A stretch of DNA of 64,000 bases from Dialister micraerophilus DSM 19965. GTDB taxonomy: Bacteria; Bacillota; Negativicutes; Veillonellales; Dialisteraceae. The notes below the pieces were generated by a model. It saw only the letters and a list, made by a program, of their open reading frames with translations. It was not told where the DNA came from and did no database searches. The stretch lies in assembly GCF_000194985.1 (NCBI RefSeq), contig NZ_GL878519.1, positions 23,904 to 87,903 of the forward strand. The letters are read 5' to 3'. Within the stretch, counting starts at the first letter, position 1, and each line of letters begins with the position of its first letter. Both the position numbers and the translations under genes were made by a program. Of the stretch, positions 44,454 through 46,554 are shown one piece after another.

Positions 44454-45083
44454 TTATATATTTCTATAAAGTCCGATTACTTTACCTCTTATAATTACAT
44501 TTCTTGAAATAATCGGTTCATAATTATCATTTTCAGGTTTAAGTAAGACATAATCCGTTTTTTTATAAAAACGTTTTACTGTAGCATCTTCATTATCTAC
44601 TAAAGCAACAACGATATCTCCATCATTTGCGGTATTTTGTTCAGAAACAATAAGATAATCACCTTCATTAATGCCTGCATTAATCATACTATCTCCACGA
44701 ACAACAAGTATAAAACAGTTTCCGTTACTTCCAATCATTTCAGCGGGTAATGGAAAAACTGTTTCAATATGTTCATCTGCAAAAACAGGTTCTCCGGCTC
44801 GTACTGAACCCACAACCGGCATCGGCAACATTTTTTTTGATTTCCATGATTCGTTATGATCTATCAGTTCAATAGCACGTGAACTTGAGGGGTTTCTTTT
44901 TATAACACCAAGTTCTTCCAAGCGTGTTAAATATCCATGTACTGTAGATGTAGATTTTAAACCTACAGCTTGACAAATTTCTCTTACAGTAGGAGGAAAA
45001 TTTGAGTCTTCAATTTTTTTTCGAATAAAGTCAAGTATACTTTGCTCACGAGAAGTAAGTTTGCGCATAGTTTTTGTATTCAC
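44454..45083 (-). CDS. lexA: LexA SOS repressor
   Basis: Represses DNA-damage genes until RecA-stimulated self-cleavage. The winged helix-turn-helix lies at about residues 28-55 (TVREICQAVGLKSTSTVHGY). The cleavage bond is A96-G97 in VRAGEP. The catalytic Ser is S132 (GDSM) and the Lys K170 (TVKRF). 209 residues is normal. The start is GTG 45083, five bases after AGGAGG; ATG 45068 is an alternative. LexA-like boxes overlap its own promoter, so it is autoregulated, and it faces a YneA-like gene. Confidence 0.96.
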   Translation of the reverse strand: MNTKTMRKLTSREQSILDFIRKKIEDSNFPPTVREICQAVGLKSTSTVHGYLTRLEELGVIKRNPSSSRAIELIDHNESWKSKKMLPMPVVGSVRAGEPVFADEHIETVFPLPAEMIGSNGNCFILVVRGDSMINAGINEGDYLIVSEQNTANDGDIVVALVDNEDATVKRFYKKTDYVLLKPENDNYEPIISRNVIIRGKVIGLYRNI

Positions 45084-45116
45084 AACGACCTCCTATATAA
45101 TTTACGTATATTAATA

Positions 45117-45145
45117 ATTATACTATAGTAAAAAAAATAATTCAA
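45117..45145 (-). promoter_or_regulatory. lexA: lexA promoter
   Basis: On the minus strand TTGAAT (45140-45145), 17-base spacer, TATAAT (45117-45122). The -35 overlaps LexA-like box 45144-45155. Confidence 0.8.
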
Positions 45146-45240
45146 ACACATGTTCCCGAACAAATATTTCAAAGCTCTTGACCAAACAAATATTCTGGTA
45201 TATAATAACTACAGAATATTTGTTCTGAGAAAATATGTTC
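45144..45240. promoter_or_regulatory. Cluster of five LexA-like operator boxes
   Basis: Five 12-base near-palindromes share a GAACAnATATTC / GAATATnTGTTC pattern: AAACACATGTTC (45144-45155), GAACAAATATTT (45158-45169), AAACAAATATTC (45184-45195), GAATATTTGTTC (45214-45225) and GAAAATATGTTC (45229-45240). Their half-sites resemble the Gram-positive LexA box GAAC-N4-GTTC. One covers the lexA -35, one fills the opposite promoter's spacer, and two lie just past that promoter's -10. Confidence 0.8.
45178..45206 (+). promoter_or_regulatory. Promoter of the YneA-like gene
   Basis: TTGACC (45178-45183), 17-base spacer, perfect TATAAT (45201-45206). The spacer begins with the LexA-like box 45184-45195. 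This strong promoter would be shut by LexA and opened on DNA damage. Confidence 0.8.
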
Positions 45241-45261
45241 TACTTGGAAGTGGTGAATTTC

Positions 45262-45513
45262 ATGAAAAAAATAATAGTTTTTTTATTAATAAGTATATGT
45301 TTTTATGGATTTATAGTTAATGCATCTACATTGCAAGAAAAGAAATACAAAGAAGTAATGATTGAAAAAAACGAAACTTTATGGGATGTAGCAAAACGTA
45401 ATGTGGGAACTGATAAGGATATAAGAAAGTATATATATGAAATACAGAAAATAAATAAAATAGAAGATCCGGGAAAGATAATTCCTGGTAAAATTATAAA
45501 ACTTCCTGAATAG
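45262..45513 (+). CDS. Small LysM protein, probable SOS cell-division inhibitor (YneA-like)
   Basis: An 83-residue exported or membrane-anchored protein. Residues 1-20 (MKKIIVFLLISICFYGFIVN) form a membrane/signal segment. The rest is one LysM peptidoglycan-binding domain (EKNETLWDVAKRNVG through IIPGKIIKLPE). The start is ATG 45262 behind GGAAGTGGTG. The frame stays open to 45235, but that would place codons inside a LexA box. B. subtilis YneA has the same build, size and place, divergent from lexA, and halts division during SOS. Function here is inferred from that parallel. Confidence 0.8.
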   Translation: MKKIIVFLLISICFYGFIVNASTLQEKKYKEVMIEKNETLWDVAKRNVGTDKDIRKYIYEIQKINKIEDPGKIIPGKIIKLPE

Positions 45514-45514
45514 T

Positions 45515-45572
45515 AAAAAGAACACTTGTTTGTTTGATTGCCGGTAGTGCTAAACAAACAAGTGTTCTTTTT
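45515..45572. terminator. 21-bp perfect inverted repeat, bidirectional terminator
   Basis: Arms of 21 bases at 45515-45535 and 45552-45572 (core GAACACTTGTTTGTTT) flank a 16-base centre. The outer A-run/T-run makes it a good terminator for both the LysM gene and the recombinase, whose stop codon lies in the right arm. The stem is unusually long, so a second role as a recombinase site is possible. Confidence 0.75.
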
Positions 45573-46554
45573 ATGTTTTGTTAAAAATAATGGAAATAGG
45601 ATTGTTAATAAATAAATCAGCTTCATTTATATAATGACGTACCATTTCAACAGAATGATGACGTGTTTGTTTCATTATTATTCGTTCTTCAATGCCGTTC
45701 ATTGCCGCAAATGTTGCAAAACCATGTCGTAAACTGTGAGCACCATATAATTCTTTTTGTAATCCTATTTTATTTACATATTTTTTTACAATTAAATTTA
45801 CACTTTTATCACTTAATGCATTATCAGATGTTTTTCCATTTTTCAGTAAACGACGAAACAAGGGTCCTTTAGTGATATGTGCTTCTTTTATCCATAATTT
45901 AAGAGCAGAAACGGCACACATATTTTTATCTTCAAGATAGGGTATGCCTATAGTTTGTCCGGATTTTTCTTGATCGGTTTTAGATTCTTTAACTATAATT
46001 ATAATACCTTGAGGAACAAATGTAATATCATTTAATTCTAAAGATGTTAATTCACTTCTTCTGAATGCACCCATAAAACCTAAAAGTAATATCGCTTTAT
46101 CTCTTATATCGGTTAAGCATGATAAATTCATTGTAACTATTATTTTTTTCAAGTCTTCCCAATAAAGAGGAGTTTTACCTTTTTGCCGTGTACCTTTTTT
46201 TCGATTGAGTCCTATTAAAGCTTCCTTTATAATCCAATTTTTACAGGGATTATTTACGTTTATTCCTGAAGCTATAGCAGCATTGTAATTTTCGGAGATT
46301 GCACTTACACGTCTTTTTATTGTTGATGATTTAGCATAATCAGCTAAATCATTTATATAATTAACAACAGTTTCCGAAGTTGCAGGAAAAGCAGAAAATT
46401 TATTATAAATACACCAATTGCAAAAGTCATCCCAATCTGATTCGTAAGCATTAATAGTATTTTCAGATTTTGTTTCTGAAAGTGTAGATAAGGATTTATT
46501 TGAAAGTAATGTACTGTTTATTATTTTTTTTAAATAGAAATGTTTGTTATTCAT
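45571..46554 (-). CDS. Tyrosine recombinase / integrase
   Basis: Site-specific recombinase of 327 residues. The SAM-like N-terminal DNA-binding domain covers about residues 30-120 (NTINAYESDWDDFCNWC). The catalytic set is complete: R165 (FRRSEL), Lys in KESKTDQ, H273-xx-R276 (HSLRHG), H300 and nucleophile Y308 (VRHYINEADLF). From memory, FRRSEL-SLELNDI and KTDQE-SGQTIGIPY resemble integrases of plasmids and accessory elements more than XerC/XerD. It stands alone, without excisionase, phage or transposon genes. Base composition matches the neighbours. Perfect inverted repeats flank it on both sides. Confidence 0.88.
   Translation of the reverse strand: MNNKHFYLKKIINSTLLSNKSLSTLSETKSENTINAYESDWDDFCNWCIYNKFSAFPATSETVVNYINDLADYAKSSTIKRRVSAISENYNAAIASGINVNNPCKNWIIKEALIGLNRKKGTRQKGKTPLYWEDLKKIIVTMNLSCLTDIRDKAILLLGFMGAFRRSELTSLELNDITFVPQGIIIIVKESKTDQEKSGQTIGIPYLEDKNMCAVSALKLWIKEAHITKGPLFRRLLKNGKTSDNALSDKSVNLIVKKYVNKIGLQKELYGAHSLRHGFATFAAMNGIEERIIMKQTRHHSVEMVRHYINEADLFINNPISIIFNKT

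Follow-up and report, generated by a model that had tools for sequence, protein, structure and literature searches.

LexA boxes of the type found in this work follow the consensus 5'-GAACN4GTTC-3' (PMC4234289). In B. subtilis, a passage of PMC8457756 cites three sites upstream of lexA, and SOS-induced inhibition of division by YneA acts through FtsW and needs the Asp (D46) of the peptidoglycan-binding DT motif of YneA (PMC13396833). In C. thermocellum, Clo1313_1449 (LexA) and Clo1313_1450 (YneA-like) are divergent; lexA is preceded by three LexA sites and the YneA-like LysM gene by a conserved one, and there is DAP-seq support for LexA (PMC8457756). In S. aureus, SosA, one of several Gram-positive division inhibitors, is a small membrane protein with a single pass, and its LexA-controlled gene lies next to lexA (PMC6851548).

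The window, the whole stretch of 64,000 nucleotides analysed here from Dialister micraerophilus DSM 19965, contains a comparable locus, in which 97 bp between lexA and a divergent gene for a membrane segment plus LysM domain hold five 12-base LexA-box-like sites. Its features are as follows.

44454 to 45083, minus strand: lexA, 209 aa, matching TIGR00498, PF01726 and PF00717, with a DNA-binding domain.
45117 to 45145, minus strand: lexA promoter, -35 TTGAAT (45145-45140), 17-bp spacer, -10 TATAAT (45122-45117), 10 of 12 consensus matches.
45144 to 45155: LexA box 1, AAACACATGTTC, with a 2-base overlap with the lexA -35.
45158 to 45169: LexA box 2, GAACAAATATTT, weak by the matrix.
45178 to 45206, plus strand: promoter of the YneA-like gene, TTGACC (45178-45183), 17 bp, TATAAT (45201-45206), 11 of 12 matches.
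45184 to 45195: LexA box 3, AAACAAATATTC, inside the spacer of the YneA-like gene promoter.
45214 to 45225: LexA box 4, GAATATTTGTTC, covering the point where transcription is expected to start and a near-perfect inverted copy of box 3.
45229 to 45240: LexA box 5, GAAAATATGTTC, 15 bp after box 4.
45262 to 45513, plus strand: YneA-like gene, 83 aa, membrane segment plus LysM (PF01476, NF010723).
45515 to 45572, plus strand: terminator-like hairpin downstream of the YneA-like gene, folding as single-stranded DNA at -20.1 kcal/mol (z -8.2).

As the original prediction had stated, the locus shares with B. subtilis the divergent layout of lexA and a membrane-plus-LysM gene. Multiple boxes of the GAAC-N4-GTTC type are also common to both. 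It differs from B. subtilis in having five boxes instead of three, in the degeneracy of boxes 2-4 at position 4/9, and in its diderm host with LpxC. The likeness to C. thermocellum lies in the divergent genes with LexA sites on both sides, whereas the number and sequence of the boxes differ. As in S. aureus, the gene next to lexA encodes a small membrane protein with a single pass and would be controlled by LexA, but SosA is without LysM and the small gene here has it. The genome (1.28 Mb) encodes LpxC, which supports an outer membrane and a diderm host, and its LexA is of the Bacillota type, in agreement with the earlier description of the organism as a diderm relative of Firmicutes. The locus shows that diderm Firmicutes retain the LexA/YneA-type checkpoint layout. 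How such bacteria divide under an outer membrane during SOS is little studied, and the box positions given here can be used for SOS mapping in this group. Full-text literature on LexA and Dialister yielded nothing on the topic, and literature on LexA and Negativicutes, judged by title, none about it.

The boxes were scored with a matrix built from 73 boxes of two other families only. With this matrix, boxes 1 to 5 ranked 4th, 24th, 25th, 10th and 5th among the 63,989 positions of the window, and the top 25 positions thus include all five: two strong, one middling and two at the edge. In 200 simulated windows (first-order Markov, same dinucleotide make-up), the maximum number of such sites per 100 bp was one in 180 cases and two in 20, compared with five in the real window. 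Since the sites lie at the coordinates predicted for them, rank high and were never matched by more than two in simulation, the observation is real: near-palindromes are present at 45144, 45158, 45184, 45214 and 45229, and their clustering is far beyond chance.

The predicted relation of the boxes to the two promoters was likewise confirmed. The box at 45144 overlaps the minus-strand TTGAAT by two bases, and the position of the lexA promoter relative to box 1 is the same in relatives. The box at 45184 begins directly after the plus-strand -35 and occupies 12 of the 17 spacer bases between TTGACC and TATAAT. LexA matched TIGR00498 over its full length with 224.2 bits (cut-off 110.95), and its A96-G97 cleavage site, S132 and K170 are invariant in the alignment with relatives.

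Conservation was followed in a sample of 30 lexA loci from the order to which the window genome belongs, in which GAAC-N4-GTTY-type boxes lie upstream of lexA and an automated pick found a divergent LysM gene in 26. On the lexA -35, nearly all relatives have AAAC....GTTC at the equivalent position. On the opposite side, a box recurs in the order within the promoter spacer, where it follows TTGAC directly; the next lies some 27-37 bp beyond it, past the -10, and often there is one more box 15 bp further. The arrangement in G023, which belongs to another family, matches that of the window (spacings 15, 28, 36 and 15 vs 14, 26, 30 and 15), with its second lexA-side box at 15 bp. Three to five boxes at conserved positions in the same layout occur across the order, one more family of the order likewise having them. 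The number five had been presented as unusual; at least six order relatives also have five sites, and one further relative reaches five via very weak sites only, so the uniqueness of five boxes was rejected.

Beyond the order, the divergent gene was found in 26 of 80 further loci across the class, in many families, and 12 of 71 named lexA loci in a mainly clostridial set had a divergent match, one of them doubtful (L212, from an actinobacterium; the frame is 264 aa long). The layout is also present where local GC is 45-56% and is therefore not an AT-rich artefact. The divergent layout, with the box on the lexA -35 and the one in the spacer of the other promoter, recurs across the order and in some Clostridia; it is found in many families of the class and has been reported for C. 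thermocellum (PMC8457756), and is thus ancient and not new to the literature. Because the layout is shared by many related bacteria, the region in the window is ordinary: a known kind of control region, and a real and well-founded annotation. Two large families of the class, f12 and f16 (L308-L350), are without a divergent yneA-like gene and mostly without boxes upstream of lexA, which suggests loss or rewiring of the checkpoint there.

Intact LexA, clustered boxes and conserved layout bear out the SOS control region predicted between lexA and the YneA-like gene, and we consider it highly probable that LexA represses this divergent control region, which is of the Bacillota type, and that division is delayed after damage. 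The genes, promoters, boxes and conservation are direct observations, to which LexA binding, induction and division inhibition are added from what the protein families are known for. LexA dimers on box 1 (and box 2) at the lexA promoter would provide autoregulation, and LexA on box 3 in the spacer, box 4 at the start site and box 5 would keep the membrane-anchored LysM protein off. Upon DNA damage, RecA filaments would trigger self-cleavage of LexA and both genes would be turned on, and the LysM protein would then delay division until repair is done, like YneA in B. subtilis. The points against this repression model are the low-scoring boxes 2-4, the lack of a box at recA and dinB, and a YneA score below the cut-off.

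The first of these points concerns box strength. The boxes at 45158, 45184 and 45214, near-copies with AACAAATATT in common, carry A/T where G/C is normally fixed and score low (6.3-9.2, vs 12.3-14.1 for boxes 5 and 1). The summed matrix strength of the boxes here fell short of the values for one family member and for every one of the 20 f3/f4 loci, and exceeded those of other members of its own family; the claim of an "unusually tight" shutdown is therefore unsupported, because the boxes are weaker than those of most relatives. It is conceivable, if rather unlikely, that boxes 1 and 5 function by themselves and that boxes 2-4, with their shared sequence and low scores, bind weakly or via their neighbours. 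A GAAC-N4-ATTT site (vanR) tested in C. difficile was not stably bound (PMC4234289), which fits such weakness, but the positions of boxes 3 and 4 carry boxes in nearly all relatives, and GAAC-N4-ATTC is found both as the promoter-spacer box of a different family (GAACATTTATTC) and at other DNA-repair promoters of close relatives in the genus, namely those of umuC and rSAM_link_UDG (three genomes each). AAACAAATATTC lies before uvrB in one close relative. Because A at position 9 recurs at the umuC, rSAM_link_UDG and uvrB promoters of close relatives, its use instead of G in spacer boxes is a genuine habit of the lineage, likely giving weaker operators, not a new specificity. AT-richness as the sole cause of this drift was rejected, as AT-rich relatives of f4 and G006 keep intact GAAC/GTTC. 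At the umuC-like and rSAM_link_UDG loci of the genus (L224, L229, L241, L251, L252 and L253), the GAAC-N4-ATTC boxes are adjacent to the -10, and rSAM_link_UDG has GAAAAAATGTTC near the start site as well.

The small gene has the build of YneA that had been described for it. A hydrophobic N-terminus, read from the sequence by eye, stands ahead of a LysM domain (PF01476, 24.2 bits, cut-off 20.9), and the best NCBIfam family is YneA NF010723 with 50.4 bits (E 1.6e-13), below the curated cut-off of 60. As the counterparts in four order relatives score 46-49 bits, also below 60, the whole group is to be called YneA-like and not certified YneA. The start codon would most likely be the ATG at 45262, rather than 45235, which overlaps box 5; by eye, a GGAAG ribosome-site-like sequence lies upstream of the former, and relatives begin with the same MKK... 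The sub-threshold score, together with a DT-motif Asp that by eye is apparently Glu here (NETLW), leaves a minor chance that the gene is SOS-controlled but encodes another LysM envelope protein, not a division inhibitor. YneA is nevertheless the best family by far, with relatives scoring alike; size, build and location are the same as in YneA, and the motif Thr and an Ile near the C-terminus are kept (by eye).

Downstream of the YneA-like gene, the arms of the terminator-like hairpin contain box look-alikes (45520-45531 and 45556-45567), GAACACTTGTTT and its reverse complement, which score at least as high by the matrix as all five promoter boxes. This look-alike pair was seen in this genome only, the relatives being without it. 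A tyrosine recombinase (45571-46554) reads towards the YneA-like gene, and since the apparent end of the same recombinase gene was seen by eye after yneA in many order relatives too, the neighbourhood seems conserved. In B. subtilis, yneA is followed by a different recombinase-like gene, yneB.

The original prediction also offered a consensus, GAACAnATATTC, for defining the SOS regulon, which did not hold. It rests mostly on boxes 2, 3 and 4 and has two exact matches in the genome, one here and one at G000:C1:103732, which was rejected as a regulatory site, lying inside a rarA-like ORF. With up to three mismatches, it gave 443 matches vs 399.5 ± 19.7 expected and is useless as a scanner, and the uvrB box does not fit it. 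A lineage LexA of changed specificity with a GAAC-N4-ATTC box, as this consensus would suggest, is very improbable: GAAC-N4-ATTC does stand before umuC and rSAM_link_UDG in the genus and AAACAAATATTC before one uvrB, but an altered recognition helix was rejected, as in the alignment the helix region (STSTVHGYL) is the same as in lineages using GAAC-N4-GTTC; moreover, GTTC/GTTT ends persist in boxes 1, 4 and 5 and at uvrB of this genome, and where the A occurs, it is mostly in promoter-spacer boxes and in their -10-facing half.

LexA boxes had been expected upstream of recA, uvr genes and dinB. The genome was covered by pattern searches and selected regions, and the expectation was borne out for uvrB, where a box, GAACTGTTGTTT, lies near a TATAAT and heads a uvrB-uvrA-uvrC run; recA and dinB had no LexA box within about 350 bp. 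The recA gene is located after ftsK-like, rimO-like and cinA-like genes, and no convincing recA promoter box was found in the family members searched either. With no box near recA in the family, recA itself may not be SOS-induced there.

The most interesting thing seen is a covariation of paired operators. Boxes 3 and 4 (45184-45225) together make up an inverted repeat of 13-14 bp whose loop contains the -10, and folding of a single DNA strand gave -10.1 kcal/mol (z -5.5). Across loci, the N4 cores of the two boxes gave 86 reverse-complement matches vs 64.8 ± 5.1 when re-paired between loci, and 10 exact reverse-complement core pairs vs 1.7 expected, while direct-orientation matches were not raised. 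The effect remained when repeated core pairs were taken out (P 0.001) and when shuffling was confined to families (P 0.014; exact pairs P 0.0006). Box pairs 1-3, 1-4 and 4-5 showed no comparable effect when tested in this way. With only the class set, in which the spacer core is ATAT in most cases, the effect for boxes 3 and 4 was not significant, and extension of the inverted repeat into the flanks was weak (P 0.025 and 0.10).

The effect in this first set was found post hoc, and the rule for its replication, in which it held, was fixed beforehand. The replication covered the phylum of the window genome and mixes lexA-yneA with other box pairs. The 55 pairs among the matches listed gave 133 reverse-complement matches vs 103.1 ± 5.3 (P <1e-4) and 103 direct-orientation matches vs 99.7. 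With one pair per family (47 families among the matches listed), the corresponding values were 122.7 vs 92.9 expected and, in direct orientation, 92.9 vs 91.6; this family collapse is not a tree, and its core lists were entered by hand. Composition or position preference as the cause was rejected by the cross-locus shuffles and the direct-orientation control. We are evenly divided on whether, in Bacillota, box pairs straddling the -10 of the yneA promoter (and similar pairs elsewhere) co-evolve as an inverted repeat. On this reading, the unconstrained N4 cores are mutually reverse-complementary, so that one strand could pair with itself, the stem again making a LexA operator and the loop containing the -10. 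The cause could be selection for a hairpin or cruciform at the SOS promoter, or mutational homogenisation by template switching. If true, a rule by which operators paired around a -10 covary in one orientation only would be a new constraint on promoters under repressor control. Literature searches on covariation of paired operators returned nothing alike among the titles, which is weak evidence of novelty.

One further site was noted outside the lexA loci. At L225 (G000:C1:805033, locus position 1501-1518), a TATAAT is directly adjoined by a LexA box, GAACAAACGTTC, that is a perfect palindrome. The two lie between an ORF with no Pfam match and a sigma-70-like gene (PF04542) that is divergent, with DUF1659 and DUF2922 genes nearby, and the box possibly marks an SOS-controlled sigma factor.
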